Made by a program: the position numbers and the translations under genes. A DNA stretch of 64,000 nt from Acidocella aquatica (GTDB taxonomy: Bacteria > Pseudomonadota > Alphaproteobacteria > Acetobacterales > Acetobacteraceae): assembly GCF_030160635.1 (NCBI RefSeq), contig NZ_BSOS01000043.1, positions 1-64,000 on the forward strand, in the 5' to 3' direction. The notes beneath the pieces are model-generated. The model was not told the DNA's origin and did not search any database. It saw only the letters and a program-made list of their open reading frames with translations. Positions 1 to 15,836 of this stretch are shown in pieces (within the stretch, counting starts at the first letter, position 1; each line of letters starts with the position of its first letter).

Positions 1-364
1 TCTCCTCGCGTAAAATGCCGAGAAAATTCTACTTATCAATCCCCTTAATGGCAGGGGGGATTACCGAGGCACTTCCCGAAAGCAGCCGTTCGCCGCAAAA
101 ACATGAAGGAATGTGTCGCCAATTTTGTCGCGGGTGGGGTGGAAATTTGCGGCAGAGACGCGCGACAAATGAACATGAAGAAAAGCAATGGGTTGCGTCT
201 TGGTGCGCGCTGTCGCGCAATTTACAAGTTACGCGACACCGCATGTCTCGGTAGGGTGGATTTCAGCCTGTCGGCTTACGGCCGACTGAAGCGGATACCG
301 GACATTCGGTTTTTGGTCAAAATCGGACTGGCGACTTTAGAACGTCGGATGGGACAAGCGGGCG
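1..364. other. Gene-free left edge with TGTCGC half-sites
   Basis: No convincing reading frame is present; the short frames on both strands lack a ribosome site and resemble no family I know. The stretch is rich in the hexamer TGTCGC or its complement: direct copies at 114-119 and 126-131, an inverted copy at 162-167, and a full palindrome at 211-238. Clustered half-sites next to a palindromic core would fit a recombination or attachment site with accessory protein sites. That reading is inference. Confidence 0.45.
211..238. repeat. 28-bp palindromic site (left copy)
   Basis: Two 10-bp arms, TGTCGCGCAA and the complement of TGTCGCGTAA, surround an 8-bp centre (TTTACAAG). The same design recurs at 3496-3523. 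Ten-bp inverted arms with an 8-bp asymmetric centre are the geometry of a tyrosine-recombinase crossover site, though binding by a dimeric regulator would look similar. Confidence 0.6.
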
Positions 365-3019
365 TCACGCCGGCACCACAGCCATCCGCCGATTGAATTG
401 GTCCATCTGGATAATTTTTACGTGGATAACGCTACCAATTGTGAAGGCAGGATCCGACATGAATTCTGCCTTCATTTTGCTGGCAGGGATAAGCGCGTCA
501 AGTTCGGGTTCCATATTAACAAATATGCCGAAGTCCTTGATCGCCAACACAGTCGCCAAATGGGTGCTGCCAACAGGATAACGAACGTGAGAGCCATACC
601 AGGGTGGTGGGACGATAGAGCGCTCGAATTTCTCCACAGCGTGCAGGCTTTTTGTCAAGTCAGTTAGATCATCGAATGCTTTTGGATCACGAAAAGCATC
701 TATGGCGCTACGCTCTCGTTCGCGCGATGCGCGGAGCATCTTTATTAAGTCGGCTGCATTAGAAAATGACGTGGCAGGAGTATAGTGAGTCTCTTCACTC
801 TTTATACGTGCAGCTATTCCATCAGCCATATCCTTTTTGAAGAACCACGTATCTTCAGCCACTGCAGCGAGATAATAGACATCGGCCATCATCTGATTGT
901 GCACTAGCCCGGCCGGAGCGAGCGCAATCAGATCTTCGTCGGTCAAGTTCTCAACGCGATAATCCTCCGTTATAACACAGAAGCCTCGGACCAAGTTCTC
1001 CAGCTCGCGTGCAAATACGGCATCCTCGACCCCATACCCTGACAGCTCCCTCCTAATCACTCCAACATGTTCATACCCTTTGAGCCGCTTGGGGCCGTGG
1101 ACATCCATTCTTCCTAACAGTGTCCGTATAATCATTAAGCGAACGAAATAGTTCACCCTGGCATCGTGCTCGTCTACCTGGACAAGACTTTTCAAGTAGG
1201 CGTGCGAACTGTCGTAGAATCGCTGGTTAAGCCTTAGAAGTACCGTTGTTACTAGCTGTAACGGTAGAACATACTGCCCTTTCGATTGTCTTATTTTTAG
1301 GTACTCAGGCTCGCTGATATGGCCGCTCGTACAAAATTCTAAGAAGATCTCCAGCGCCCGGCGCATGTTCCTGCCTGATAAGCCAACAATCAGCCGGCGG
1401 ACATGTAGCCCATGGTCAAATATCGATCGCATAATCGAAGACAAATAATAGGCCTGATCAGATGCGGGATAATCAACGTGCATTCCATTTGGAAGACTGT
1501 ATCTAAGCATCTTGGAGCCTTTGGTGGCGATGCTATTGAGCGCCATTTGTACACGACTCTGGAGTATGTTTTGAAACAATGGAGGTTCGATTCTGAAAAC
1601 CAGATCCTTCAAAGCAGTGTCGAGAGGCGGTTCATTCTGATGATTATCATAGGTCTCCTCTCGTAAGGGGAGTACGACTAATCCGGTAAATTCTCGTTGC
1701 AGCCACTGAGCAGCTTCGAACATAAGTAGCTGCTCGTCACGTAAACGCTTATCACAATTGTCCAATACAATAACGAGAAGTTTTCCGGTTTGAGCGATCA
1801 AATAGCGCGTCATGGCGAGCGCAGTTTTGTGTAGATCACTCATCAGACTGCTTAGAATATCGGCCAGCTTCGCGTTCCAGGCCGCCGTGTCTTTTTCCAA
1901 GAGGCGCCCTATCCCCTTGCGGAACGTAGTGATATCAGGGGCATGAACTGCCTTTATTACGTCTAGGTCGTCAAAATCCGTTTGAGGGCTTGCCAAACGG
2001 AGACCTTCCACAATCTCCCTTCGGAGCCAATCATAAATCTCTGAGCGCGAAATCGGCGCAGGATTCATATTGATGCGAACCCATACGGTCTTGGCTTTTA
2101 TGTCTGCTGGTAGTGCAACCTCCTGCAAATAGTCTACGAAGGTTGTCTTCCCGGCCCCTGCGCTTCCAATTAACAGCAACACCTGTTGCTCGAGTTTTCT
2201 GCCGGTCCTAAAGGTTTTGATTATCTCATTCGGAGCGGCTGTATTCTCAATCGTTCTTGAGCGCGAGATGGATGGCGGAGTAGCCGCACGTATGATCCTA
2301 TCGATGGGTTCAATATAACGCTCTCTCCTTTTAGAGGATATGTAACCAAGCTTGACAATGGCAACCCGATCTTGGTGATTAATCGGATTGAATATGTGAG
2401 AAAAATCGGCGGATATTGTGGCTCCAAACGTGTTTAGTGCAACCTCTTCTCTCTGTGTAGCACCTCCTCCTACAAGCTTTCGAGGTTTCCAGAGCTTTTG
2501 TGGCCGGAATCTTGGCAATAGCTTCTCATAGTCAGCTTTGACAGCCTTAAACCCAAACTCTGCCGTAAATTTCGACATCTTCTCTGAGGTAGGTCCGATC
2601 TCATCGTATGATAGATCATGCTTTGGATCAGCTTGGTCTGCGAGACCTGCAAGAAGGCGTGAACCATTTGTTGCGATCACCTTAGAGGCTGGATTCAGGC
2701 CAGTAGGATAAACTGCGTTTAGCTCAATTGCATAGAGGCGCGCTTCGCGAAATGCCTCTGCGAGGTCAATCCCTGGCGCTTTTGCCTCGACAATTATGAG
2801 CGGCATACCGCTCATCATTACGATATAATCCGGATAGTATATTTTGCTAGTATTGCCTTTTCCGATCGCAAAGCTTTTCAGATTGGCTTTGGTTTGAATG
2901 CCTGCGCCAGCGAAACCAAGGCCGCTAGGCGCCTCGGCGACAAGAAGGGGATATATGAACTTCTGCTCCACATCACTTTCGGTCGACATGTCAGCGCTAG
3001 CTGGCTTTTCAAATTGCAT
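365..3019 (-). CDS. HsdR_N-type nuclease / P-loop NTPase / S1-domain fusion protein
   Basis: About 884 aa if begun at 3019; the frame is open to a GTG at 3122-3124 and no start has a strong ribosome site, so the N-terminus is uncertain. Near residues 60-80 lies a PD-(D/E)xK pattern (PDYIVMM...IIVEAKAP) typical of the N-terminal nuclease of type I restriction R subunits. Near 283 is a Walker A motif (GSAGAGKTT) and near 416 a Walker B-like strand ending in VLDNCD, as in STAND/KAP-like NTPases. The last 70 residues resemble an S1 RNA-binding fold (GTV-like strand, DFGIFVNMEP, LIPASKM, G.VIHVKI). It stands alone between two palindromes. Nuclease plus switch NTPase plus nucleic-acid sensor suggests an anti-phage or anti-plasmid role; this is inference, as I know no characterised protein with this order. 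Confidence 0.7.
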   Translation of the reverse strand: MQFEKPASADMSTESDVEQKFIYPLLVAEAPSGLGFAGAGIQTKANLKSFAIGKGNTSKIYYPDYIVMMSGMPLIIVEAKAPGIDLAEAFREARLYAIELNAVYPTGLNPASKVIATNGSRLLAGLADQADPKHDLSYDEIGPTSEKMSKFTAEFGFKAVKADYEKLLPRFRPQKLWKPRKLVGGGATQREEVALNTFGATISADFSHIFNPINHQDRVAIVKLGYISSKRRERYIEPIDRIIRAATPPSISRSRTIENTAAPNEIIKTFRTGRKLEQQVLLLIGSAGAGKTTFVDYLQEVALPADIKAKTVWVRINMNPAPISRSEIYDWLRREIVEGLRLASPQTDFDDLDVIKAVHAPDITTFRKGIGRLLEKDTAAWNAKLADILSSLMSDLHKTALAMTRYLIAQTGKLLVIVLDNCDKRLRDEQLLMFEAAQWLQREFTGLVVLPLREETYDNHQNEPPLDTALKDLVFRIEPPLFQNILQSRVQMALNSIATKGSKMLRYSLPNGMHVDYPASDQAYYLSSIMRSIFDHGLHVRRLIVGLSGRNMRRALEIFLEFCTSGHISEPEYLKIRQSKGQYVLPLQLVTTVLLRLNQRFYDSSHAYLKSLVQVDEHDARVNYFVRLMIIRTLLGRMDVHGPKRLKGYEHVGVIRRELSGYGVEDAVFARELENLVRGFCVITEDYRVENLTDEDLIALAPAGLVHNQMMADVYYLAAVAEDTWFFKKDMADGIAARIKSEETHYTPATSFSNAADLIKMLRASRERERSAIDAFRDPKAFDDLTDLTKSLHAVEKFERSIVPPPWYGSHVRYPVGSTHLATVLAIKDFGIFVNMEPELDALIPASKMKAEFMSDPAFTIGSVIHVKIIQMDQFNRRMAVVPA

Positions 3020-3687
3020 TGGCCCATACATCCCCATCATACCCACTATGGATTGGTAACATATCCCGCCGTTCGAGAACAGATCAGGAGCGACGCATGG
3101 GTATCTCATCCACAATAGAACCACCGGGACGCTAACAAAACTGTCGCAGCGCTCCTGTCTACGCCGGTCCTGCCCAAGCCACTGAACGTCCGGCTTTAGG
3201 GAACCCGCCCAGAGCCGGCGTACGGCTGGAAAGCCCCCCTGCTACCCCATGCCTGTAGTGTCCGCTTTCTGAAGGTAGCCAAAAACGGGGAATTACAAGG
3301 ATGGGCGTGAAACTGCCGGATACGGACGATGCTGGCGGCGTCCTTTCGGGAGCGCCCAACGGGGGCATGAAGGTCGGAACGCAGACAACCTGTCCTCCTT
3401 GCAGGGACAGAGCCGTTATCGGCCCGTGCGAGCGAACGACCGCTTTGGGGATCGGCGCTGCTGGTGGCCGATAGCTTGGATGGGTCGCTTCTGGCTGTCG
3501 CGTAACTTAGGATTTATGCGACAAGGCAGACGGTAGCTGACGGGCCATTGTAACGGCAGCTTACCTTGAAACTCCATTGCAAACCCGCCTAGCCGCTATC
3601 GTGGCCAACCTTGCCGTTGGCGGAACGCCCGCTTCTCTTGCCGACGGCGAGGAAGCGGACCATCCGTTCCCCAACCAAGCCGATTAT
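3020..3687. other. Gene-free spacer with right palindrome
   Basis: No supportable gene. A 57-codon frame starting ATG at 3301 has two CxxC-like cysteines but no convincing ribosome site or family. The only clear structure is the palindrome at 3496-3523. The promoter of the nuclease-NTPase gene should lie near 3030-3200, but no confident -35/-10 pair is visible. Confidence 0.4.
3496..3523. repeat. 28-bp palindromic site (right copy)
   Basis: Arms TGTCGCGTAA and the complement of TGTCGCATAA surround an 8-bp centre (CTTAGGAT). When the left copy at 211-238 is reverse-complemented, both begin TGTCGCGTAACTT. The pair therefore brackets the single nuclease-NTPase gene like the ends of a cassette. 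Confidence 0.6.
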
Positions 3688-3729
3688 GCAGAAAACCCCC
3701 CAGCCCGGATGGGGCTGAGGGGTTTCTGC
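3688..3729 (-). terminator. Rho-independent terminator of the small MTKD gene
   Basis: A long GC-rich hairpin: GCAGAAA and CCCC, then CAGCCC pairing with GGGCTG around a 5-nt loop, closed by GGGG and TTTCTGC. It begins at the stop codon of the gene at 3729-4061. On the minus strand the stem is followed by TTTTCTGC. Confidence 0.65.
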
Positions 3730-4061
3730 TAGTGACTGTAGCCTGTCGTCGGGAACGTGCCGAGCAACTTCTCGGTGCACGTGACGAGGGCTTCAGCATG
3801 GCCGTTGAGCGTTTTGGCCATATTTAGGACCCTCATCATCGATTCGGCGATGATGAAGGTTTGATCAGCGGATCCTCCCGCGGCCAACTTCTTCGCGACT
3901 TCGGCCGCGGTGGCACCGACGGCTTCGTTGTGAGCCGCCAGGCTTTGGACAAAGTCGCCGATCAGCAATTGCAGGCGAACCCGCTCCTCCGCCCATTGCG
4001 GGGCGGCGGATGCGGCATTTGTGTTGATGCCGGGGTTTCTGGCGTTTTGATCTTTAGTCAT
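3729..4061 (-). CDS. Small MTKD- protein of unknown function
   Basis: 110 aa from ATG 4061; the frame could begin at 4103, but AAGGACA at a good distance selects 4061. The protein starts MTKDQNARNPG and is otherwise a likely helical region (residues 26-95), with no recognisable motif, signal peptide or membrane segment. I do not recognise the family. The start region (RBS, ATGACTAAAGA) is nearly the same as that of the XRE gene at 25250-25837, and both have a far-upstream promoter of the same design. It follows the tyrosine-recombinase pair and ends in a strong terminator, so it is a separate short transcription unit. A regulator or accessory factor of the recombination module is plausible but unproven. 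Confidence 0.6.
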   Translation of the reverse strand: MTKDQNARNPGINTNAASAAPQWAEERVRLQLLIGDFVQSLAAHNEAVGATAAEVAKKLAAGGSADQTFIIAESMMRVLNMAKTLNGHAEALVTCTEKLLGTFPTTGYSH

Positions 4062-4308
4062 ATATATTGTCCTTATAAAAAACACGCCAACAGTCATGCG
4101 CATGGCTGCATTATGCAGTCGTGAACACGAATTTTACCTCCAGGTTACTGGAGAGCTGTTGGATGGTGTCGGGGTGATTGCGCGCTGGACGCTCGAGGCA
4201 GCTAATTATAAGATTTTGCCGCTTGCAGACAGGGCCGCGATGTTTCCGCATTAGAGTGGAAGCAAGAGGCCCAGAGCGTCCGCATACGCAGGATGCGTCT
4301 GCACACAA

Positions 4309-4337
4309 TATATAGAATATCGTAACGATAAAGTCAA
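4309..4337 (-). promoter_or_regulatory. Sigma-70-type promoter with CGTTACGATAT spacer motif
   Basis: On the minus strand: TTGACT (4332-4337), a 17-bp spacer, TATATA (4309-4314). The spacer contains CGTTACGATATTC. The promoter at 25974-26002 has the same spacing and the same core motif, so the motif is likely an operator. It leaves an untranslated leader of roughly 240 nt before the gene at 4061. No other gene is visible in 4062-4365. Confidence 0.65.
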
Positions 4338-4365
4338 GCTTAAATCACTGTTTTTATAAAAATTT

Positions 4366-5502
4366 TTAGGATTCGTCGTTGGATTTCCGGTTCTGCGCGA
4401 TGAGGTGTTTTGCCACCAGTTTTGACTTCTTCCGCTCCTCCTCGATGGCGCTATAATATTTTGTTTCGGCGACATGGTCGCGCGCGCGATTGTAGTGCTT
4501 CGCATGCATCCGAGCACCGATCGACAGCAAGCTCGTGGCAATGCCGGGATGTTCGGGGTCATCAACAGGCGCATGCGTCCCGACGGCGTGGCGGAAGCGA
4601 TGGGTGGCGAAGGGCAGCGTGAATTTCCGCCCCGAGCGGTTCCACATCGCGGTGGTCAAACCGGCCTCGGTTAACGCCGTGCCATCGGAGGAGACCCAGA
4701 GCGCGGTAGCCGCCTTGGCGATGCCGTTGGCTGTCACGCTCTTCATGGTGCGCAGAAGCAATGCCGGGCGGATTTCGGAGACGTAGCGGTTGATCCACGG
4801 GGTTAAGGTTTTGGGCGCATCAAACTCGATCCAGCGGCGATTTTTCACATCTTCGGGTTCAAATTTGAGGCGCCAGCCATCTGCGTTCCGAAACAGATGC
4901 TTCCCGATCTGCATTGCCGCGAAGCTGCGCCGGCGGATTGCGCGGCTGGCGAGCAGGCATATGATCAGCCCATCGCGATACTGCGCCAGCCGGCGCTGGG
5001 GCCGCTTTTGCGCATCAGCCTGCGCGAGCAACTCCAGCCCCCAGCCGTACAGTTCGGAAGGGTGTGGCACCGGAAATTCCTTACGGCGGCCTTTAAGGTG
5101 CGGCGAAAGCTTCACGCCATTGGGCGCCCAGATCCAGCGCCAGTCCCGTGTGGGCGCAAGAATTCGCATCGCGCAACTGATGCCCGAGATAGCCAGGACG
5201 CTCGATTGCGCGCAGTATCCCATTTCCTGCAACTCGCGCAGGTAGTCTGCGATCCGGGCCGGGGTTACCATCTGCGCGGGCGGTACGCGATCGTCCAGTT
5301 CTCCACGCCCATCCAGGAAAGTCAGCCAGCGCCCAAAATTTCGCGCCATCGTGTCGAGTGAGGATGGCCGCAACGATTTGCCGTAGCTGGCCTCGTCGAG
5401 ATCATCTCCGGGCGCGGTTGCCTCCTGCCAAGCCTGCCGATAGGCGGCCGGCCATTCGTGCAGGCGGCGCCATTTCCGGCGCGGATCAGGATTTTTCGGC
5501 AT
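4366..5502 (-). CDS. Tyrosine recombinase/integrase (second of pair)
   Basis: 378 aa from ATG 5502, which overlaps the end of the upstream recombinase by 17 nt; longer in-frame starts would run deeper into that gene. Residues about 30-140 form a SAM-like core-binding part. The catalytic part shows the first Arg (LLASRAIRRRSF), the HRFRH box (H-x-x-R) and the C-terminal nucleophile in HAKHYNRAR. It is paralogous to the recombinase at 26867-27979, which has the same order of boxes and the same overlap with an upstream partner. The two overlapping genes probably act together in integration or excision of the island, as in tandem-recombinase elements. The final lysine-rich tail (KKSKLVAKHL) may bind DNA. 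Confidence 0.85.
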   Translation of the reverse strand: MPKNPDPRRKWRRLHEWPAAYRQAWQEATAPGDDLDEASYGKSLRPSSLDTMARNFGRWLTFLDGRGELDDRVPPAQMVTPARIADYLRELQEMGYCAQSSVLAISGISCAMRILAPTRDWRWIWAPNGVKLSPHLKGRRKEFPVPHPSELYGWGLELLAQADAQKRPQRRLAQYRDGLIICLLASRAIRRRSFAAMQIGKHLFRNADGWRLKFEPEDVKNRRWIEFDAPKTLTPWINRYVSEIRPALLLRTMKSVTANGIAKAATALWVSSDGTALTEAGLTTAMWNRSGRKFTLPFATHRFRHAVGTHAPVDDPEHPGIATSLLSIGARMHAKHYNRARDHVAETKYYSAIEEERKKSKLVAKHLIAQNRKSNDES

Positions 5503-7546
5503 GGAACGCCCCCTTTTTCGGACCTCTGGTGACCTTGCCGGGACGGAAACCCTCCAGCATCTGCCGGGCGACGCGCTTGGCAACCTGGCGCTCCTTAAGG
5601 ACGGCATCATCATGCCGCGCCGCGGCGACGTCTTGCTCAAATGCGATATAAGATTTTATAGACGTTTCGAGTCGTTTATGACCGAGGAGGCGTCTCACGC
5701 CCTCGTAATCGCCGGGGTGGTAGTGCAGATGCAGCCAAGCACAAAAATGCCGGAACAGATGAGGGTGGACCTCAACCTTTGCATAGTCACGCACGGCACG
5801 TGTGATCCAGGAGCCAAGCAGATCCTTGGTCATCGGCTTTTCTTTTTTTCCGGGAAATATCCAGGGGTTTCCGGGCTTAGCCAGAAGAGGACGAAATTTC
5901 TCCAGCCAAATTTCAATAAGTTCAGCCGTCGCGGCTGGCAAAAGGCGTTCGATGGGCACCCCGTTTTTGACCTCGGTCTCATCGACGATTAAATACATGG
6001 CGCGGCTTTTACCGTTGGTTGCCCGGCGCAGTGAACGTTCCAGATGCAGCAAGTTCAGATTTCCGAGACGTGGTGCCACGACGGTGAGCAGTTCGATCAT
6101 TACCGCGACACGCACTCGCCGGGCTGCATCAAGCGGGTCGGTGCATTTTTTTGCACCTTCCAGCAAAAATTGCGGCAGCATCATGATAATCGCGCGCGTG
6201 TTCGGCTCAATCATGGCGCGCAGCCGCTCACGGTTTTTCGACACGACGCCGTTATTCGCCGGCTCGACAATGCCCTTGATCCGGGCCAATTCCGCATGGA
6301 CGTATGCATCAGCTTGGCAAAAGCGGGCGGCATGGCGCAGTGCCTCGATAATGCCAGCAACAAATGAGGAGCGCGGCTCCGCACCACGCTCGCGCAAAAT
6401 CCGCACCACCGTTTTGACGCGGCTGGCCGGCGTAAACAAGCCGGCCAGGTTTGTGAGTTCTTTCGCATCATGCCCGGCATGAATCAGGGCGCTGGCCGCG
6501 CAACGAAGCTGATAAACCCGCAAGGCCACGGTGCTGGGTTTCAATGGCCGGCTGGGGCGGAATGGGCGCTGCTCTGCGGGGAGATCGAGGTCGTCATGCA
6601 ACGCGCCAAGATTTTCAGGCGTCATAGCAGCTTTGAATTTATCAAGTTCTTGCCTGAATGATTCCATAAATTTCGTGGCCGGAAAAGTCAGGCGTGCCTT
6701 TTTGTCCGGCAAGACCAGCGCCTGTAGGCCCAATTCTCGGTAGCGATCGATCAGGCGCGCCCACTGATTGGTGACCTTGCGCAGGTAGGCCGTGCGGTCA
6801 CTGATGATCGCACTCGCGGCCAGATCACGGCCAAACGCGGTGAACACAGCAGACGTCACGGCCTCGGGTTCGATGTTCCGGTCGCTGCAATAACGGGCGA
6901 GGCGAGTCAGGTGGTGACGGTCATATTCAGCATCCAGGCGGCGCTTCAGATCCAGCCACGCCGGCATCAGCCCGTCAGCGCCAGGCTGATGGGGGTGGGC
7001 CAGCCCCATGAGCGCCGCGACTTTATTGATGCCTGACCGGATGTTTTGCCGACGCTTAACTTGATGGCCGCGGAGCTTGGGTGTTAGCGCGAGGATGGTG
7101 TCAGATAGTGCCTGCAAGTCCAACCGAATGCCCTGCGGCGGCTGCCCCAGCAACTTTGCAGCCGAAATCAGCGCGGAGCGGTAATCGCGCCGCTTGGTGG
7201 GCGTCAGGTCGGGAGCGGTTTCCAAGAACGACAGCGCATCCGCGAAACTTGGAAATTTGCGAGCCTCGCTATTCGCAGCCGCTGGCGCGGGTGTCTCCGG
7301 CTGCGGTGGGGGGGCAAGGACAATCGTTTCGCGAGGTCTGCGGACCTTCGGGGCGATGGCCGGCTTGGCCGGCTCGCGGGGGGAGGCCGCGTTGCTGTTC
7401 TGCGGCGTCTGAAGTACGGGGGCGGACGCCTCGGCCTGCTGGTTGGGTGAGGTGGCGTCCGTGGCGTGCCCAGGCTCGGTCAGCTGGCTGTCGGCCGTTA
7501 TGCTCGCTGGGAAAAAGGCCTCAAAATTGAATGAGATTTGCTCCAT
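5486..7546 (-). CDS. Large tyrosine recombinase/integrase (first of pair)
   Basis: 686 aa from ATG 7546, chosen because GGAGG lies 6 nt upstream; the open frame reaches 7621. Residues 1-80 are Pro/Ala-rich linker, 90-190 a core-binding-like region, and the catalytic domain is in the last 200 residues: Arg in VVAPRLGNLNLLHL, HPHLFRH (H-x-x-R), LLGHKRLET, and Tyr in SYIAFEQD. All expected catalytic residues are present, so it should be active. It lies downstream of the HTH protein (7672-8037) and overlaps the second recombinase. Its C-terminal 70 residues are clearly related to the fragment at 27979-28195. Confidence 0.85.
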   Translation of the reverse strand: MEQISFNFEAFFPASITADSQLTEPGHATDATSPNQQAEASAPVLQTPQNSNAASPREPAKPAIAPKVRRPRETIVLAPPPQPETPAPAAANSEARKFPSFADALSFLETAPDLTPTKRRDYRSALISAAKLLGQPPQGIRLDLQALSDTILALTPKLRGHQVKRRQNIRSGINKVAALMGLAHPHQPGADGLMPAWLDLKRRLDAEYDRHHLTRLARYCSDRNIEPEAVTSAVFTAFGRDLAASAIISDRTAYLRKVTNQWARLIDRYRELGLQALVLPDKKARLTFPATKFMESFRQELDKFKAAMTPENLGALHDDLDLPAEQRPFRPSRPLKPSTVALRVYQLRCAASALIHAGHDAKELTNLAGLFTPASRVKTVVRILRERGAEPRSSFVAGIIEALRHAARFCQADAYVHAELARIKGIVEPANNGVVSKNRERLRAMIEPNTRAIIMMLPQFLLEGAKKCTDPLDAARRVRVAVMIELLTVVAPRLGNLNLLHLERSLRRATNGKSRAMYLIVDETEVKNGVPIERLLPAATAELIEIWLEKFRPLLAKPGNPWIFPGKKEKPMTKDLLGSWITRAVRDYAKVEVHPHLFRHFCAWLHLHYHPGDYEGVRRLLGHKRLETSIKSYIAFEQDVAAARHDDAVLKERQVAKRVARQMLEGFRPGKVTRGPKKGAFHAEKS

Positions 7547-7671
7547 TTTTGCCTCCATGGAAGGTTGCGGAAACTTGCGGAAAGTCGGGAAAAGGGTGGG
7601 CAACGAATAAATCGCATTCATCGGCAGCCGTTTTCCCGACAGTGCCGTAAGATGCAGATTTCGTTGCCGTG

Positions 7672-8037
7672 CTACGCTGCACCGTCTTCACCGGAATTCG
7701 TGTGAAGGTAGACACCGCCGTCAGGCAGCGAAGCCCCGCCCCCCGAGGACATCGGAGGCGATTGGGGGGCGGTTGCAGCTGCTTCGCCGCCGGTGATCAG
7801 TTGCTCGATGTCGCTGATTTTGAAATAGAGCGAACGGCCAATCCGCACGCCAGATAGCAAGCCGCGCGACTCCCAGTTCCGCAGCGTGCGCGTCGTGCGG
7901 TGAAAGATCCGCGCGGCCTGAATGGCGGGCACCAGTGTATCGATGTTGGGCTCGGCGCAGTTGATGGACGGGGCGACGTCAAATGCCGCCGCGCCCTGTT
8001 CGTCAGCAGCTTCTGCAGGTTGGCAGTTATCGGTCAT
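7672..8037 (-). CDS. MerR/excisionase-type helix-turn-helix protein
   Basis: 121 aa. Residues about 35-85 carry a helix-turn-helix of the HTH_17/excisionase type (VPAIQAARIFHRTTRTLRNW, then SRGLLSGVRIGRSLYFKISDIEQLI), in which a winged-helix protein reads DNA near a recombination site. The flanks are low-complexity Ala/Gly/Ser. The start overlaps the end of the 78-aa gene (8027-8263), so they are co-translated. The position directly upstream of the two recombinases suggests a directionality factor or operon regulator. The HTH identity is clear; the excisionase role is inferred from context. Confidence 0.75.
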   Translation of the reverse strand: MTDNCQPAEAADEQGAAAFDVAPSINCAEPNIDTLVPAIQAARIFHRTTRTLRNWESRGLLSGVRIGRSLYFKISDIEQLITGGEAAATAPQSPPMSSGGGASLPDGGVYLHTNSGEDGAA

Positions 8038-8263
8038 TTTGGAGGTGATCCGCTGCGGCGGCGTTATTGCGGGCAGCCTCGCGGGCCGTCTGGCGGCCCA
8101 GCAGCCGCGCCAGGTTCATGAAGGCCTGATCGACCGAAGGTGCTGCAGATTGGTGGCGGGGGCCCGAGAGCGGGGCTGCACCGTGTTGATCGCCGTTGGC
8201 GACACCGCCAGCCTGCGCTAATTGCACTTCGAGAGACGTGGGATTAGTGGCCTTGTGTCGCAT
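8027..8263 (-). CDS. Small conserved-looking protein of the recombinase module
   Basis: 78 aa from ATG 8263 with GAGG 7 nt upstream. The central part (DQAFMNLARLLGRQTAREA) is an amphipathic helix; the rest is polar and Ala-rich. No family is recognised. Its stop overlaps the start of the HTH gene at 8037, which argues for a real, translationally coupled gene. It may be an accessory factor for the recombinases; that is only inference from position. Confidence 0.55.
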   Translation of the reverse strand: MRHKATNPTSLEVQLAQAGGVANGDQHGAAPLSGPRHQSAAPSVDQAFMNLARLLGRQTAREAARNNAAAADHLQNDR

Positions 8264-8412
8264 GGCTGCCTCGTTGAGACACTCATCAACAACATCAGCG
8301 CATCATGCCGCCACCACAGCTTCCTGCAAGAATTCAACTTTTTTGGCTGGCCCTGATCTGCCAGGCAAGGTCGCTTACCGGCCGGCGACTATGTGATGCT
8401 CAGGGGCGCAGC

Positions 8413-9042
8413 TTATTCATGGTCATGTTTTTCAAAAAAGTACCGCAGCGCTGTCCTGATATTGGCCGACGATGCATTGACCGGATCGGCACACAGAACG
8501 GCCTCCACGAAATTGCCAAAGCTGTCACGATTCTGGCCGCTCGTCGGTGCATCGTCTCGATATTTTCGCCAGAAGGAGCCAAGGCATTCAACACCAAATT
8601 GCACGGCATCGGGCAATTCATGAGCGCCCGCGCGCTGGGGCGGCGTCGCAGCGACCAGCTTGCTCGCGTTCGCCGCCATTTCCGTGAGGAGCCCCTCGAA
8701 CTCAACCAACTTGCTCACGGCGTCCGCATTGAGTGCCGGCCCGGCTGCCTGCAGGCCGGTGTGTGTAGCTTCGGGGTGAGCCGGGATTTCGCCGCCGCCG
8801 AAAAGCAGCCTGCGAGTCGTGGGGTCAATGTCCCCGAGGTGCCTTAGCAGCTTGATCGCCGCCGCCCCGGCCTGGCCAAGCTTTTTTTTACGTTCCGCCG
8901 GCGCGCCGAATTTTTTTGAGTCCTGCGCATATTTCGAAATTTCAGCCACGGCCGATTTTAGCCTCGGGCCGATGGCCGGATCGCCGAACCAAGCGTTTGC
9001 AATTTGCCGAAATGGGTCGTGTGAAGAATTTTTGCCGGTCAT
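8413..9042 (-). CDS. Unknown 209-aa protein heading the recombinase module
   Basis: 209 aa, mostly helical, no signal peptide or membrane segment. Residues 40-65 are basic (KKFGAPAERKKKLGQ) and the C-terminus reads IRTALRYFFEKHDHE. I do not recognise the family. It is the first gene of the minus-strand run that ends with the two recombinases; a gap of 149 nt separates it from the 78-aa gene, so a second promoter is possible. A role in controlling or assisting the element is inferred from position only. Confidence 0.55.
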   Translation of the reverse strand: MTGKNSSHDPFRQIANAWFGDPAIGPRLKSAVAEISKYAQDSKKFGAPAERKKKLGQAGAAAIKLLRHLGDIDPTTRRLLFGGGEIPAHPEATHTGLQAAGPALNADAVSKLVEFEGLLTEMAANASKLVAATPPQRAGAHELPDAVQFGVECLGSFWRKYRDDAPTSGQNRDSFGNFVEAVLCADPVNASSANIRTALRYFFEKHDHE

Positions 9043-9598
9043 TTTCTCGCGCGCGCGTTAGGTTAGAATCTTAGGTTATGGTAGCTGGATAGGTCAGTAT
9101 TACCAAGGGAACCTATTCTGGTGAGTGATGGGGCCAGGGCAAAGCAGGACCAACCCCGCCATTTGGCGAAGTTGGCCACTCACCTTAGCGAATCGGGGTC
9201 CTTTTCCGGAGCCGTGCCGTACGCCTTGGGCCGGACACGAAGAGGGGCGTGGCCGGATGGTTCGCTGCTTCTCGACGATTAACCCTATCGCCGGGCGTCC
9301 ATGGGCCTCGAACCTGCGCAGTGCCCTTCGGATGGATGACGCCAACCCCACAGTATCCGGTGCAATCCAAGCGCTGCTGTCTCTGCCGACCACATGGACT
9401 GGCCAGCACCAAGCCAAGGCGACGCGTGCTGACCAGAATGGTAAACGCTGGTTTTCGGGCCTTTCGCCAGCAATTTGGTCTGCAAAAATTCGAATTTTTC
9501 GGCTGAGCTGCGCCATCGGCGGTGCCACCGTTGTCTTTGGCACTCGCATCCCGCAAAGTCACCATCGGCGGCTTATTGCCGCGAATCGGAGAGGCTGA
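9043..9598. other. Divergent intergenic region before the restriction operon
   Basis: 556 nt between the minus-strand recombinase module and the plus-strand restriction operon. Open frames cross it on both strands but none has a ribosome site or a recognisable product. An imperfect inverted repeat, GGTGAGTG...GGCCA against TGGCC-ACTCACC, occupies about 9119-9183. It probably holds promoters for both directions; no convincing -35/-10 pair was found. Confidence 0.4.
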
Positions 9599-11323
9599 AT
9601 GGCACGGGAAGAGCGGTTTTTGGAGGTTCTGGCGGAACTTGGGGGCAGTGCCGGTAATGGCAGGCTCCAGGCGGAGCTGGGCTGGCAGGACGGCACCTAT
9701 GCACGGGTGCAGGCGGCGCTGATCGAGGACGGGCGGATCGTCAAAGGCCGGGGCCGGGGCGGCTCCGTGGCCCTGGCGGAGCCATCCCAAGAGGAAGCCC
9801 GGGCGCCCGTGGCGCAGCCCAAGCCCGCCGCCCGGCCAGCCTCCCGCGCCAGTAACGGCAACGGCGGCACCAGCTTCGAGCAGATATTCAAGAACATCGA
9901 CGATGTGCTGTGGAAGGAAGCCGGTTGCACCACCGAGCTGGACTATACCGAGCAGACCTCCTGGATGCTGTTCCTGAAATACCTGGACGATCTGGAATTC
10001 ACCCGCGCCACCGAGGCGGAGCTGCACGGCCAGCCCTACACGCGCATCATCGCCGAGCCGCATAACTGGGCCTCCTGGGCCGCGCCCAAAAAGCCGGATG
10101 GCACCTTCGACCATGACCGCGCCCTCACCGGCTCGGACCTCATCGACTACGTGAACCGCGACCTCTTCCCCTACCTCCAGGGTTTCAAATCCCGCGCGGC
10201 GGGGCCGGACACCATCGAGTACAAAATCGGCGAAATCTTCTCGGAAATCCGCAGCAAGTTCCAGAGCGGCTATTCGCTACGGGACGCGCTGGAGCTGATC
10301 GACGGGCTGCATTTCCGCTCCCAGGCCGAGAAGCACGAGCTGTCCCACCTGTACGAAGCCAAGATCAAGAACATGGGCAATGCCGGCCGCAACGGGGGCG
10401 AATATTACACCCCGCGCCCGCTGATCCGCGCCATGATCGCCGTGGTGAAGCCCCAGATCGGCGAGCGCATCTATGACGGCGCGGCCGGGTCCGCCGGGTT
10501 CCTGTGCGAAGCCTTTGAGTATTTGAACGCACGCGCCAAAACCACGGCCGAGCGCGACACGCTGCAAAAGCGCACTTTTTACGCCAAGGAGAAGAAGAGC
10601 CTCGCCTATGTCATCGCCATCATGAACATGATCCTGCATGGCATCGAGGCGCCCAACGTCATCCACACCAACACCCTGGCCGAGAACATCGCCGATATTC
10701 AGGACAAGGACCGTTTTGATGTCATCCTCGCCAACCCGCCCTTTGGCGGCAAGGAGCGGCCGGAGGTGCAGCAGAACTTCCCCATCAAGACCGGGGAAAC
10801 CGCCTTCCTGTTCCTCCAGCATTTTATAAAATCGCTGAAGGCCGGGGGACGGGCCGCCATCGTCATCAAGAACACGTTTCTGTCCAACTCTGACAACGCC
10901 TCCCGCGCCCTGCGCCAGGAGCTGCTGGAGAACTGCAATTTGCACACGGTGCTGGACTGCCCGAGCGGCACGTTCCAGGGCGCGGGGGTAAAAACGGTGG
11001 TGCTATTCTTCGAGAAAGGCGCGCCCACGCGGCGGGTTTGGTACTACCAGCTCGACCCTGGCCGTAGCATGGGCAAGACCAGCGCGCTGAATGATGCTGA
11101 CCTCGCTGAGTTCGTCACGCTCCAGGCGAGCTTTGCGGACTCTGAGAAATCGTGGTCCGTGAATGCCTCCAGCATCGACCCCACCAGCTTCGATCTATCC
11201 GTAAAGAACCCCAACCAGGCCGAGGAGGTGGCGCTGCGCGACCCGCAGCACATTATTGCCGAGATTCTGCGTCTGGATGCGGAGAGTGCGGAAATCCTTG
11301 AAGGTATTCGGGGGCTGCTGTGA
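9599..11323 (+). CDS. hsdM: Type I restriction-modification methyltransferase subunit
   Basis: 574 aa; GGAGAGG sits just upstream of ATG 9599. It transfers a methyl group from S-adenosylmethionine to adenine N6 in the target set by HsdS. Residues about 1-58 look like a winged-helix extension (GNGRLQAELGW...VQAALIEDGRIVKGRGRGG), followed by a Pro/Ala linker. The N-terminal HsdM helical domain starts near 90 (FEQIFKNIDDVLWKEAG). The SAM-binding motif is YDGAAGSAGFL near 295 and the catalytic motif NPPF near 379. First gene of the hsdM-hsdS-hsdR operon; its stop overlaps the start of hsdS. Confidence 0.95.
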   Translation: MAREERFLEVLAELGGSAGNGRLQAELGWQDGTYARVQAALIEDGRIVKGRGRGGSVALAEPSQEEARAPVAQPKPAARPASRASNGNGGTSFEQIFKNIDDVLWKEAGCTTELDYTEQTSWMLFLKYLDDLEFTRATEAELHGQPYTRIIAEPHNWASWAAPKKPDGTFDHDRALTGSDLIDYVNRDLFPYLQGFKSRAAGPDTIEYKIGEIFSEIRSKFQSGYSLRDALELIDGLHFRSQAEKHELSHLYEAKIKNMGNAGRNGGEYYTPRPLIRAMIAVVKPQIGERIYDGAAGSAGFLCEAFEYLNARAKTTAERDTLQKRTFYAKEKKSLAYVIAIMNMILHGIEAPNVIHTNTLAENIADIQDKDRFDVILANPPFGGKERPEVQQNFPIKTGETAFLFLQHFIKSLKAGGRAAIVIKNTFLSNSDNASRALRQELLENCNLHTVLDCPSGTFQGAGVKTVVLFFEKGAPTRRVWYYQLDPGRSMGKTSALNDADLAEFVTLQASFADSEKSWSVNASSIDPTSFDLSVKNPNQAEEVALRDPQHIIAEILRLDAESAEILEGIRGLL

Positions 11324-12495
11324 TGGCAGGCTGGACTGTCCAAGACTTTGAAAGGTGTATCGAACCCGTCAAATACGGAACAAAAATCAAACGCGCGGAT
11401 TTTCTTGAGTCGGGTGAATATCCTATCATCTCTCAAGAGGCCGAATTCATAAACGGTTATTGGCACGACGAGGCTGATCTCTACGCGCCAGATCGCCCCG
11501 TTATAATTTTTGGAGACCACACCAAGGCGCTGAAATACGTAGATTTCCCATTCGTTCTTGGCGCCGATGGGGTCAAAATTCTAAAGCCGAAAGCCTTTCT
11601 GAATCCAAAGTTTTTTTATTATTGGCTTCAGTCCATCCGTTTTGAGAGCCTTGGGTACGCACGCCATTATAGGCTATTACTTGAACAGATTGTTGCGTAC
11701 CCGCCGCTCCCCGAGCAGAAGCGCATTGTCGCCATTCTCGATGAGGCCTTTGCGGGCATCGCAGCCGCAACCGCCAACGCCGAGAAGAACCTCGGCAACG
11801 CCCGCGAGCTGTTTGAAAATTATGTGGAATCTGTCTTCTTGCAGCAGAGCGAAAATTGGATTGAGAAATCGCTCGGATCAATTGGAGGCGATGTTTTCAC
11901 AGGACCGTTCGGGTCTCTTTTGCATAAAGCGGACTATGTCACGGGCGGAACACCTCTGGTAAATCCAGCGCATATTATAGACGGAAAAATCATCCCTGAT
12001 ACGGAAAAAACCATCGATCCGGCCGCACTAGAGCGACTCCAAAATTATTGTCTTAAGGCGGGCGATGTTGTTATTGGTCGGCGAGGAGAAATTGGCCGAT
12101 GTGCGGTTGTAACTGCACGAGAAGATGGCTGGCTTTGCGGCACAGGATGCTTTTATATCCGTGTATTTGAAAAAACAAACCCACATTTTTTGGCGGCGTT
12201 ACTCCGTTCAAAACACTACCGCCAAAAGTTGGAAGCACTTTCCACAGGCGCAACAATGCTTAACCTGAGCAATACGACTCTTAGTGAGTTCAAAATTCGA
12301 GTTCCACACTTGGTAGAACAAAACAATCTCATGAAAGCCATGGAAGGTCTTTCAAAGCAAATTGAATTGCTTGAAATAGCTTACCAGAAGAAGCTGGCTG
12401 CATTGGCAGACCTCAAACAAGCCATCCTGCAGAAAGGCTTCTCCGGCGACCTCACCGCCCTCCCCGCAGCGGCCCTGCATGAGGAAGCTGCATGA
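11323..12495 (+). CDS. hsdS: Type I restriction-modification specificity subunit
   Basis: 390 aa from ATG 11323 (TGATG overlap with hsdM; a GTG at 11320 is the alternative). It gives sequence specificity to the complex through two target-recognition domains, roughly residues 1-125 and 180-325. Each is followed by a conserved helical spacer: PPLPEQKRIVAILDEAF near 127, and a second long helix ending KKLAALADLKQAILQKGFSG. The first domain's codon use is more AT-rich than hsdM and hsdR, as is usual for exchangeable recognition domains. The stop overlaps hsdR by ATGA. Confidence 0.93.
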   Translation: MAGWTVQDFERCIEPVKYGTKIKRADFLESGEYPIISQEAEFINGYWHDEADLYAPDRPVIIFGDHTKALKYVDFPFVLGADGVKILKPKAFLNPKFFYYWLQSIRFESLGYARHYRLLLEQIVAYPPLPEQKRIVAILDEAFAGIAAATANAEKNLGNARELFENYVESVFLQQSENWIEKSLGSIGGDVFTGPFGSLLHKADYVTGGTPLVNPAHIIDGKIIPDTEKTIDPAALERLQNYCLKAGDVVIGRRGEIGRCAVVTAREDGWLCGTGCFYIRVFEKTNPHFLAALLRSKHYRQKLEALSTGATMLNLSNTTLSEFKIRVPHLVEQNNLMKAMEGLSKQIELLEIAYQKKLAALADLKQAILQKGFSGDLTALPAAALHEEAA

Positions 12496-14822
12496 ACGAG
12501 GCGGAGACCCGCGCTGAGTTGATCGACCCCGCGCTAAAACAGGCGGGCTGGGGCGTGGTGGAAGCCAGCCGGGTGCGCCGGGAGGAGATTACGCTGGGCC
12601 GCCTGCAAGGGGCGGGCAAACGCGCACGCGGGGACATTGCCGATTACGTCCTCACCTACCGCAACCACAAGCTGGCGGTGATAGAGGCCAAGCGGCGGGA
12701 TTTGCCGGATACCGAGGGCGTCGGCCAAGCCAAGAAATACGCCGAAAAACTTCAGGCCCGCTTCGCCTATTCCACCAATGGCGCGGGCATTTACGAGATA
12801 GACATGCATACCGGGGCGGAAGGCTATGTGCCCCGCTACCCTACGCCGGACGAACTCTGGGGCCGCGCCTTCGCCGAGCAGAACGCCTGGCGGGACCGCT
12901 TCGCCGCCATCCCGTTTGAGGACATGAGCGGCAAGGAGCCGATCCGTTATTACCAGGAAGTAGCCGTCAATAATACGCTGGAAGCCATCGCTAATGGCCG
13001 TAAACGTATCCTTCTCACGCTTGCTACCGGCACCGGCAAAACGACGATTGCCTTCCACCTGGCCTGGAAACTCTTTCAAAGCCGATGGAACCTTGGTGGA
13101 CAGCCTACCCGCCGCCCACGTATTCTCTTCCTGGCAGACCGGAATAATCTTGCCGGACAAGCCATGTCAAAATTCACCGAGTTCTCGGCGTTTGAAGAGG
13201 ACGCCTTTATCCGCATCGACCCCGATGTGATCCGCAAAAAGGGCCGCGTGCCGAAAAACGGCAGCATCTTCTTCACCATCTTCCAGACCTTTATGAGCGG
13301 CCGGGATGCCGAGGGGAACTCGGCGCCGAACTTTGGTGATTACCCGCCGGATTTTTTCGACTTCATCATCATCGACGAATGCCACCGGGGCGGCGCGAAT
13401 GATGAGGGCTCCTGGCGCGGCATCCTGGAGCATTTTGCCCCCGCCGTGCAGCTCGGCCTCACCGCCACGCCCAAGCGCAAGGACAATGTGGACACCTACG
13501 CCTATTTCGGCGAGCCGGTTTATACCTACTCGCTGAAGGAGGGCATCAATGATGGGTTTCTGACGCCCTTCAAGGTGCGGCAATTTGCCACCACGCTGGA
13601 TGATTACGTGTACACGCCCGATGACGAGGTGGTGGACGGCGCCGTGGTGGAGGGCAAACGCTACACCGAGGGCGATTTCAACCGGATTATCGAGATAAAG
13701 GCGCGGGAGGAATACCGCGTCCGCACGTTCATGGCCGAGATCGACCAGCGGCAGAAGACGCTGGTGTTCTGCGCCACGCAGGACCATGCGGCGGCGGTGC
13801 GGGACCTCATCAACCAGATAAAGACCAGCAAAGACCCGAATTACTGCGTGCGCGTAACGGCCAATGACGGGGCGCTGGGCGAGCAGTTTCTGCGGACCTT
13901 CCAGGATAACGAGAAGACCATCCCCACCATCCTCACCACCAGCCAGAAACTTTCAACCGGCGTGGATGCGCGGAATGTGCGCAACATCGTGCTCATGCGG
14001 CCGGTAAATTCCATGATCGAGTTCAAGCAGATCATCGGGCGCGGCACCCGGCTGTATGAAGGCAAGGATTATTTCACCATCCTGGATTTTGTCCGGGCGT
14101 ATGAGATGTTCGAGGACCCGGAATGGGATGGCGAGCCGATGGAGCCGGTTGCGGTCACACCGCGCAACCTCACGGCTGCCAGAGAGCCAGAGGTGGAAGT
14201 CAGGCAATCCGAAGAGCCGGAACATGTCCAGCGCGTGAAGATCAAGCTGGCGGACGGCAAGGAGCGGACCATCCAGCATATCAGCACCACCAGCTTCTGG
14301 GGGCCGGATGGCAAGCCGATTTCCGCCAAGCAGTTCATGGAAAGCCTGTTCGGGCAGCTCCCGGAACTGTTCAGGGACGAGGAGGAGCTGCGGACCATCT
14401 GGGGCCGCCCAGACACGCGCAAGGCGCTGCTGAACACGCTGGCCGAACGGGGCTTTGGCGGCGAGCAGTTGGCAGAGATGGGTAAAGTGATAGATGCGCA
14501 GAAGAGCGATGTGTTCGACATCCTGGCCTACATCGCCTTCGCCCTGCCGCCCATCACCCGCGCCGAGCGCGTGGAGAAGCACCGGGGCGAAATCCTCCCC
14601 CGGTACGACGCCAAGCTCCAGGCATTCCTGGACTTCGTGATGGGCCAGTACGTGGCCCAGGGCGTGGAAGAGTTGGACCAGGACAAACTCGCCCGGCTGT
14701 TGGAGCTGCGTTACCAAACCCTGGCCGACGCCACGGCGGAGTTGGGCGCCGCGCCTGGTATTCGCGCGGCTTTTGTCGGGTTTCAGGAGTTTCTGTTTAG
14801 CCGGGATGCGCGGGGCTTATAG
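12492..14822 (+). CDS. hsdR: Type I restriction endonuclease/translocase subunit
   Basis: 776 aa. The N-terminal nuclease has the PD-(D/E)xK pattern (ADYVLTYRNHKLAVIEAKRR, residues about 52-75). The helicase part shows Walker A LATGTGKT (about 178), the DECH box (about 297), GLTATPKR, VFCATQDH, and the motif V-VI stretch with QIIGRGTR (about 516). The C-terminal helical domain binds the methylase core. All expected motifs are present, so the system looks functional. It overlaps hsdS by 4 nt and ends about 80 nt before the convergent LysR gene. At 776 aa it belongs to the shorter HsdR subgroup. Confidence 0.95.
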   Translation: MNEAETRAELIDPALKQAGWGVVEASRVRREEITLGRLQGAGKRARGDIADYVLTYRNHKLAVIEAKRRDLPDTEGVGQAKKYAEKLQARFAYSTNGAGIYEIDMHTGAEGYVPRYPTPDELWGRAFAEQNAWRDRFAAIPFEDMSGKEPIRYYQEVAVNNTLEAIANGRKRILLTLATGTGKTTIAFHLAWKLFQSRWNLGGQPTRRPRILFLADRNNLAGQAMSKFTEFSAFEEDAFIRIDPDVIRKKGRVPKNGSIFFTIFQTFMSGRDAEGNSAPNFGDYPPDFFDFIIIDECHRGGANDEGSWRGILEHFAPAVQLGLTATPKRKDNVDTYAYFGEPVYTYSLKEGINDGFLTPFKVRQFATTLDDYVYTPDDEVVDGAVVEGKRYTEGDFNRIIEIKAREEYRVRTFMAEIDQRQKTLVFCATQDHAAAVRDLINQIKTSKDPNYCVRVTANDGALGEQFLRTFQDNEKTIPTILTTSQKLSTGVDARNVRNIVLMRPVNSMIEFKQIIGRGTRLYEGKDYFTILDFVRAYEMFEDPEWDGEPMEPVAVTPRNLTAAREPEVEVRQSEEPEHVQRVKIKLADGKERTIQHISTTSFWGPDGKPISAKQFMESLFGQLPELFRDEEELRTIWGRPDTRKALLNTLAERGFGGEQLAEMGKVIDAQKSDVFDILAYIAFALPPITRAERVEKHRGEILPRYDAKLQAFLDFVMGQYVAQGVEELDQDKLARLLELRYQTLADATAELGAAPGIRAAFVGFQEFLFSRDARGL

Positions 14823-14900
14823 TTATCGGCGATGTTCGTATGACTAGAGATTGCGGTGCGGCAAATATTGGAAGGTAATCGTACCGTCGCCTTGGACAAT

Positions 14901-15836
14901 TTATTGTGAAATGGGTCCCCCCCCGACCGAATTTTGCTTTGTCTGTGCAACTTTCAGCGCCCGGATAAACGCATCAAACAGAAGCGGTCGGCTTTTCCCG
15001 GCGCGTGTTATAATATGGAATTGTGAATCAAATCCAAATATATCTGGTCGGATCTCCGTCATCTCCAGCCGGTCGATCCAGTATTGTGCGTAGTGTACTG
15101 GCAAATGTCCGATAAAACGGCCCGACAAAATCAGCGTGGCAATCGCTTCCATTGTTCCGACACTGTTATATATTTTCAGGGATGGGAACAGGCGCTCTGC
15201 GCGTGCGTCTGTCATGTAGCTTCGATCAATGTAATCGCACATTTCAAGATCTTTCATCGAGATTTTATGCGGCTGGCGTGTAAATAGCGGATGACGTACA
15301 CCACAAAACAATCCCTGGCGTTCGAGTATTACGGGGTGGTACGCTAGCAGGCTTAATTGCCGGTGGAATGAACCAAGCCCTGCATGCAGATATCCATCGA
15401 TCACCTGCTTTTCAATTTCATTCGGTGAAGACGTAGAGATATGAATTCTTAAATCTGGCGACATCTCAAGAAAGATCGAGATAGCATCAGCTAGGCATAA
15501 GTTTTTATTGGTTAGTAGGGCATCGACCATACCAAGCCGGAGTTCGCCCACTAGCTGACGCCGCGCAGCGCCGGCCTCCACCGAAAAATCATTCAACGCA
15601 CCCAGCAGCCGCTTTGCGGCAATGTAGATACTCTCACCATGCGGTGTGAGAGAAAAGCCAGACCTGCCACGCTGACATAATCTTACACCCAGACGTGTTT
15701 CGAGAGAGCGCATATGTGTGCTGATTGTCGGGGCGCTGAGATTTAGCTCGACTTGCGCAGCGGAAAAGCCATGGCATTCCACTACCGTTACAAACAAGCG
15801 AATCAGTCTGATGTCAATTCCGGATAGTTGGAGCAT
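14901..15836 (-). CDS. LysR-family transcriptional regulator
   Basis: 311 aa from ATG 15836; the open frame extends to 15899 but the family begins a few residues before the helix-turn-helix. Residues 8-65 form the LysR winged helix (DIRLIRLFVTVVECHGFSAA, LNLSAPTISTHMRSLETRLG); the remainder is a periplasmic-binding-like effector domain. It is divergent from the ureohydrolase operon across a 521-nt AT-rich gap, the standard arrangement for a LysR activator and its target. The effector is probably a substrate of that operon, by inference. Confidence 0.9.
   Translation of the reverse strand: MLQLSGIDIRLIRLFVTVVECHGFSAAQVELNLSAPTISTHMRSLETRLGVRLCQRGRSGFSLTPHGESIYIAAKRLLGALNDFSVEAGAARRQLVGELRLGMVDALLTNKNLCLADAISIFLEMSPDLRIHISTSSPNEIEKQVIDGYLHAGLGSFHRQLSLLAYHPVILERQGLFCGVRHPLFTRQPHKISMKDLEMCDYIDRSYMTDARAERLFPSLKIYNSVGTMEAIATLILSGRFIGHLPVHYAQYWIDRLEMTEIRPDIFGFDSQFHIITRAGKSRPLLFDAFIRALKVAQTKQNSVGGGPISQ

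Follow-up and report, generated by a model that had tools for sequence, protein, structure and literature searches.

Bacterial immunity proteins of the Avs and bNACHT type follow an effector-NTPase-sensor layout, and a comparable order of parts is present in the product (P0001, 884 residues) of a gene at positions 365 to 3019 (minus strand) of a 64,000-nucleotide stretch of Acidocella aquatica DNA (contig NZ_BSOS01000043.1, positions 1 to 64,000; the whole stretch is here called the window). P0001 shares with them an N-terminal nuclease-type effector, a central STAND-class NTPase, with a fold match to CED-4 and ZAR1, and a variable C-terminal part in the place of the sensor, but in P0001 the NACHT model stays below threshold, the C-terminus is an S1 OB (oligonucleotide/oligosaccharide-binding) fold, and no Avs model is among the PADLOC matches listed. 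As judged from genomic context, the gene is probably anti-phage cargo of prophages, and, with a probability that we put at about 0.6, it encodes a single-gene, NLR-like, gated anti-phage nuclease, carried by mobile elements and using its C-terminus as a nucleic-acid sensor.

Old of phage P2 has a TOPRIM nuclease. In P2-like phages, Old and Tin are encoded in the slot flanked by genes A and Q (PMC9122126; papers are cited by PMC number), where members of the present family are also found; however, the proteins are different ones, the family having an HsdR_N domain. Type IV CoCoNuT (McrBC-like) systems also combine RNA-binding OB folds with an NTPase and a nuclease (PMC11090510), but with a McrB-type GTPase and coiled coils, and with the nuclease encoded by separate genes; in P0001, a STAND/ORC NTPase and an HsdR_N nuclease are parts of a single chain. 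Neither a McrB-type GTPase nor a McrC-type nuclease was found in P0001 or in the nine neighbouring open reading frames (ORFs) scanned (3729-15899), the 3' side of the gene being off the contig. The PADLOC model CSD_V matches two relatives that end in a cold-shock domain (CSD; loci L018 and L110). S1-like and cold-shock OB folds are noted among the effector domains of other NTP-dependent conflict systems (PMC7159879), and thus OB folds in such systems are not new in themselves.

The ATPase RdrA of the RADAR system matches the fold of the middle part of P0001, which differs in having a nuclease and an S1 domain fused to it; beside the window gene, no gene for a deaminase was recognised. With HsdR, P0001 shares the N-terminal nuclease domain (Pfam HSDR_N; PDB 3h1t), but not the SF2 helicase motor or an HsdM and HsdS of its own. 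An ordinary HsdR or component of a type I restriction-modification (RM) system was considered and discarded, no helicase domain being over the cut-off and the nearby operon having its own HsdR (12492-14822).

The first-pass annotation of this DNA had presented the gene as a candidate new defence protein with a domain order unfamiliar among characterised ones. No full-length model of PADLOC-DB 2.0.0 matched it (best E-value for P0001, 0.0038; the matches of its relatives were also only local or weak), in support of that view, and, among the literature matches listed, titles and starts of abstracts included none on the architecture or on an assay of a member, which is not proof of absence. The architecture itself was already on record, as PHROG 14719 and in E. 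coli copies that RefSeq names 'type I restriction enzyme HsdR N-terminal domain-containing protein'. Novelty of design, which had also been put forward, holds for the S1 part only, because NLR-like immunity proteins of bacteria are already known to be laid out as effector, NTPase and sensor; to a family recorded with no function given, the putative S1 sensor on an NLR-like nuclease is what is added.

Domain architecture of P0001

The gene is an intact 884-codon ORF that sits at the contig edge. All four parts of its product lie on the minus strand: the HsdR_N-type PD-(D/E)xK nuclease (residues 14-126; 2642..2980), identified by Pfam HSDR_N and by the match of the family profile to PDB 3h1t, the N-terminus of HsdR (E, 1e-6); the STAND/ORC-type NTPase (residues 264-500; 1520..2230), identified by motif columns and fold match; the helical region (residues 501-800; 620..1519), delimited by alignment, AlphaFold2 model and fold match; and the S1 OB fold (residues 806-884; 368..604), found by Pfam, NCBIfam, PDB sequence search and fold match. 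In the Pfam scan, HSDR_N (PF04313, residues 62-122; 30 bits versus a gathering cut-off of 25.1) and S1 (PF00575, residues 817-879) both exceeded their cut-offs, and a match of AAA_16 to residues 271-436 fell below its own. In NCBIfam and PDB sequence searches the C-terminus was nearest ribosomal S1. This domain order, as first read from the DNA, is thus confirmed.

The structural comparison was done with an AlphaFold2 model (pLDDT, 84.6), the middle part of which matches RdrA, ORC/Cdc6, CED-4 and ZAR1, and the C-terminus of which matches ribosomal S1. The helical region up to approximately residue 713 aligns with the part of CED-4 and ZAR1 that is C-terminal to the NTPase, so that a central STAND-class NTPase fold followed by a helical/winged-helix part is present, with the NACHT and nSTAND Pfam models below threshold (NACHT, 15.6 versus 26.7; nSTAND5, 15.5 versus 34). 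Residues 641-800 are fast-evolving. Residues 1-190 were not covered by a fifth of the match rows, and the assignment of the N-terminal domain to the PD-(D/E)xK nucleases is made by sequence. In PDB sequence searches, P0001 alone gave mostly S1 matches, the S1-clade core reached a best E-value of only 0.04, and the wider family profile recovered the HsdR N-terminus and ORC4, with many other P-loop proteins ranking alongside the latter.

The motifs, described at the outset as intact, are invariant across all 42 aligned family members: D64, E78, K80 and Y96 in the nuclease, and G285, G288, G290, K291, D420, N421, D423, R489 and R553 further on. The Walker A motif is GSAGAGKTT (285-293), the Walker B motif is VLDNCD (418-423), and the NTPase arginines are R453 and R489. 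Nuclease position 92 is Glu in 26 of 28 S1-clade rows and Gln in 13 of 14 other rows, where the motif becomes QxxxY-like.

The family and its OB folds

P0001 belongs to PHROG 14719 (833 positions, 'unknown function'; residues 1-771 against profile positions 15-790, E, 1.6e-141). This profile matches all nine family members scanned, whether with S1, with a CSD or with no OB fold, and its match stops short of the OB-fold domain. A scan of genome contigs returned 12 loci, the titles of which name Alpha-, Beta- and Gammaproteobacteria and an Acidobacteria metagenome-assembled genome; the eight full-length relatives aligned from it share 45-58% identity with P0001. Among plasmid records there were 24 matches, three of them with at least 80% query coverage, namely those from Desulfocapsa and Paraburkholderia, in which Pfam finds S1, and from Phaeobacter (L017), in which it does not. 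Viral contigs gave 22 loci, all with an S1-like C-terminal stretch by eye, and a second scan with the protein of one of these (L028) gave 13, each on a contig already found. GenBank phages had no match to the proteins of the window gene, L028, L020 or L018. A single CSD protein found no viral relative, but a CSD alignment did find some. The closest relative (L087, in genome G046 of the same bacterial family) is 71% identical, and its surroundings, which include an integrase-like ORF and, by eye, phage-like ORFs, are possibly a prophage.

Among 32 aligned members, Pfam detects HSDR_N in 30 and S1 in 27. Five others carry a Pfam CSD (L018, L068, L069, L103 and L110), the ends of L070 and L108 look CSD-like yet fail Pfam, and further members have no OB fold. 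A tree built on 42 members unites the 28 S1 rows in a single clade (support 100/99). The five CSD rows are not one clade, since an OB-less row (L105) joins L018 among them, and the remaining OB-less rows make up further branches. Long branches meet in this tree, and its deep joins and the placement of L017 are unsure. Apparently, an RNA-binding OB fold was acquired twice, once as S1 and once as a cold-shock domain, on one nuclease-NTPase core, and the OB-less members show that the core can exist without such a fold, perhaps with another trigger.

The likeness of the S1 domain to ribosomal S1 (bS1) was refined with profiles of the single bS1 repeats built from 14 of 18 rpsA genes. The best-scoring repeat was number 5 (22) or 4 (10) for all 32 family S1 domains, with a near tie for P0001 (35.3 and 34.5 bits, respectively). 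Of the controls from the same genome, the PNPase S1 scored best with repeat 3 (49.7 versus 39.3 and 31.2), L085 (NusA by eye) weakly favoured repeat 3, and L084 (RNase R by eye) weakly favoured repeat 5 (12.2 bits), so that the preference for repeats 4 and 5 appears strong yet not exclusive to the family. The Trp of the bS1-type inter-repeat linker (W807 in P0001) is kept in 26 of 32 family S1 domains, as are Y/F830 (29/32), F833 (32/32) and K/R878 (26/32), aromatic and basic residues which we take to be RNA contacts on the RNA face of S1; position 845 is His in 21 of 32 members and Pro in P0001. The top structural matches of the domain are bS1, with the S1 domains of Tex, GSP13 and PNPase within 3 Z units.

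S1 is the fastest-evolving part of the protein (mean identity to P0001, 24%, versus 55% for the nuclease). Between P0001 and its G046 relative, identity is 65% in the nuclease, 82% in the NTPase and 53% in S1. The comparison of L028 with an E. coli copy gave a whole-gene dN/dS of 0.039, which shows the gene to be under purifying selection, and a pN of 0.116 in S1 and 0.019 in the nuclease. No dN/dS is claimed for S1 in this pair or for most segments of the window-G046 pair because dS is saturated there.

Genomic setting and distribution

The P2 slot between A (replication endonuclease) and Q (portal) houses tin/old and validated defence systems (PMC9122126, PMC9519451), as well as non-defence genes. 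By using the A, Q and P (terminase) proteins of L028 as queries, both flanks were found for eight of the 22 S1-type viral loci (L025, L027, L028, L029, L030, L033, L034 and L040), of which L027 and L028 count as one because their leaders are identical. Three loci at contig ends have one flank (A only, L026; Q only, L032 and L035) and the remaining 11 were not placed in the slot; L031, L037, L038, L042, L043 and L044 were typed by this placement only. Both flanks were also present for two of six loci found with the CSD alignment (L108 and L109, which have similar ends) and two of ten found with the OB-less alignment (L114 and L115); L116 has Q, its contig ending inside the gene, and L121 has Q with no A within the stretch. 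Thus, members of each form occupy the P2-like A-Q interval, the tin/old hotspot. The S1-type genes point the same way as A and opposite to Q; the reverse holds for L108, L109, L114 and L115, in which the gene is co-directional with Q. These orientations suggest that the slot received separate insertions. Table S5B of PMC9122126 has 169 P2-locus systems, and the gene may be one of them.

Of 5426 complete E. coli genomes, 109 carry the S1-type gene, as a single allele (at least 99% identity; protein accession of the P2-remnant copy, WP_001678413), and the two copies inspected lie in a P2 remnant, between the replication endonuclease and the portal and beside a KAP NTPase. This KAP-type P-loop NTPase (14741-16582 of L065, between the gene and Q) corresponds to PADLOC candidate PDC-S49 and PHROG 4740 and is perhaps separate defence cargo. 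An obligate two-gene system was rejected, since L028 and L030 have nothing equivalent to this NTPase between the gene and Q; with no obligate partner seen at these loci or at the E. coli ones, the suggestion that the gene has no partner is borne out. An OB-less member (L125, 5986-8436, from E. coli 789) is in a Rac-like prophage, reverse to its direct neighbours and with sieB nearby; at the sensitivity used, genes of this type are in eight of 5426 E. coli genomes.

Leaders of the S1-type genes at the P2 locus have features of their own. In the approximately 170 bases upstream of the gene, seven of eight aligned carry a promoter-like TTGACT-17-TAnnnT, L034 departing from it, and nine of ten (L025-L030, L033, L034, L040 and L065) pass the rule for a terminator-like hairpin, which follows the promoter-like sequence and ends 19-29 bases ahead of the start codon, the stem being present and the T tract short in L030; L026/L065 and L027/L028 are identical pairs. 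The hairpin is in none of 21 non-P2 homologues, and the one in the window is weak (-2.1 kcal, equalled by 40 of 100 shuffles). Among P2-locus leaders of the other forms, it is lacking in L108, L109, L114 and L115, weak in L116 and fair in L121. It looks like an attenuator of the P2-locus S1-type lineage.

Elsewhere the gene adjoins a CI-like repressor (L036, with S24/HTH, and L041), type I RM genes (L007), or DUF4238 and integrase genes (L006), a DUF4238 protein having been validated against T7 (PMC9122126); at L018, RM genes are 3-8 kb away with IS66 in between, and the Desulfocapsa plasmid copy is flanked by a replication gene on one side and a ParA gene on the other. Among the 12 genome-contig loci, neighbours were scanned with Pfam for L006 and L007 and read by eye for nine others, those of L011 being left out. 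Beside the Acidobacteria copy there is a CRISPR-like tandem array with a 66-base period (L005, 42-1201). Homologues are therefore found in mobile and defence-like contexts, and the defence-type setting proposed from the window is far more strongly indicated by the relatives in the P2 hotspot than by the window alone.

The gene is rare and patchily distributed, as mobile cargo would be. With the phrog_14719 profile, matches were obtained in one other of 298 genomes of the same family, two others of 384 of the same class (one partial), three others of 397 of the same phylum and one of 14 control genomes (Bacteroides ihuae); the S1-less profile of the S1 clade (A4, E ≤ 1e-30) matched none of the 397 other genomes of the phylum. 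A housekeeping S1 protein was rejected as an identity for P0001: 97 of 100 genomes were matched, but among the matches listed only those of G000 and G046 were full-length, that of G093 was partial over the NTPase, and the others covered the S1 end only, as cross-matches of ribosomal-S1-like proteins.

Proposed mechanism and alternatives

In the gated-nuclease mechanism that we favour, the central STAND/ORC-type NTPase would at rest hold the HsdR_N-type nuclease in an autoinhibited state. On infection, the fast-evolving C-terminal region with S1 would engage a nucleic acid (most likely RNA, possibly single-stranded DNA, ssDNA) or a nucleoprotein, ATP binding and presumably oligomerisation would then license the nuclease, and cutting of DNA, the expected substrate, would destroy phage DNA or kill the infected cell. 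Prophages, plasmids and integrative elements would carry the gene as cargo against competing phages. RNA sensing by the S1 domain is plausible; besides RNA, the S1 part may bind ssDNA or sense a protein, as a decoy.

Integrated decoys are known in plant NLRs, and the S1 domain could be a captured bS1 repeat 4/5 that serves as bait for phage factors seizing or modifying ribosomal S1, engagement releasing the nuclease, with the CSD members offering a second bait on the same core. Such a guard is considered unlikely. It would agree with the uniform preference for repeats 4 and 5 (the PNPase S1 of the same genome preferring repeat 3), the retained inter-repeat Trp, the bS1 structures at the top of the matches and the single S1 clade, and with the facts that T4 RegB needs S1 domains D4-D5 and RIII binds S1 forms containing D5 (PMC9409239). 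T4 ModB also modifies S1 domains, but with a preference for D2 and D6 over D4 and D5 (PMC10468400). Furthermore, a decoy would be expected to stay close to the host protein that it imitates, but S1 is the fastest-evolving part; the repeat preference is not wholly specific, given L084 and the tie in P0001, and the S1 domains of Tex, GSP13 and PNPase are close to bS1 in structure. The CSDs at the same end of relatives argue for generic nucleic-acid binding, which is favoured over a specific S1 decoy for this reason. A different role of S1, quite unlikely in our view, would be to bring the nuclease to RNA as its substrate, in the form of phage transcripts or of mRNA on ribosomes: the aromatic and basic residues of the presumed RNA face are kept in most members, but to our knowledge HsdR_N nucleases cut DNA, and some members are without any Pfam-detected OB fold. 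CoCoNuT systems, for which RNA targeting is predicted, do pair CSD/OB folds with NTPases and nucleases (PMC11090510).

It is improbable that the nuclease-NTPase constitutively recognises modified or foreign DNA in the manner of type IV restriction, with S1 as an accessory clamp on ssDNA or RNA. The HsdR_N domain, the absence of a methyltransferase partner of its own and the annotation of relative L019 as 'Predicted type IV restriction endonuclease' would fit, but the scanned members have no helicase, McrB-type or modified-base-reader domain over the cut-off, and the NTPase is STAND/ORC-like. The resemblance of the latter to ORC/Cdc6, and the position of the Desulfocapsa plasmid copy next to replication and ParA genes, could also speak for an accessory role of phages or plasmids outside defence (replication control, segregation, host takeover). 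This is the least credible of the readings, since at the P2 site the gene is cargo alongside a present gene A, copies elsewhere are near RM, DUF4238 or repressor genes, and the gene is rare in the sampled genomes.

The gated anti-phage nuclease would give a suggested function to PHROG 14719, a phage family of no assigned role, and NLR-like bacterial immunity would gain a new type of sensor, an RNA-binding OB fold. Since one copy lives in a P2-like prophage remnant of E. coli, the question of what is sensed (RNA, ssDNA or phage interference with ribosomal S1) is within reach of standard coliphages and T4 mutants.

The neighbourhood in the window

Upstream of the P0001 gene, a weak terminator-like hairpin follows the preceding ORF (3698..3714, minus strand; seven such sites in the stretch versus 4.7 expected) and hints that the gene could be separately transcribed. 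An upstream non-coding RNA partner was rejected, there being no Rfam match in positions 1-12000 of the window, and the leader in the window resembling those of other members at the coding start only. On the same strand there follow a 124-residue ORF (3729..4103) in which the ORF list and Pfam give no recognised family, a tyrosine recombinase-like ORF (4366..5640; weak XerC-type match, E, 2e-4) and, overlapping it, a tyrosine recombinase (5486..7621; Phage_integrase by Pfam and NCBIfam). This trio (3729-7621) is reminiscent of what we take to be a Tn554-like module, the 124-residue ORF possibly being its third gene. Relatives of the larger recombinase occur in 18 plasmid records, 11 of which are from Roseomonas.

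At 6.6 kb from the P0001 gene, an operon on the plus strand encodes HsdM, HsdS and HsdR of the EcoAI type (9599..14822; Pfam, PADLOC and NCBIfam), and is a defence neighbour, not a partner. Further along, a large serine recombinase with Resolvase, Recombinase and zinc-ribbon domains (23098-24867) perhaps marks another mobile element.
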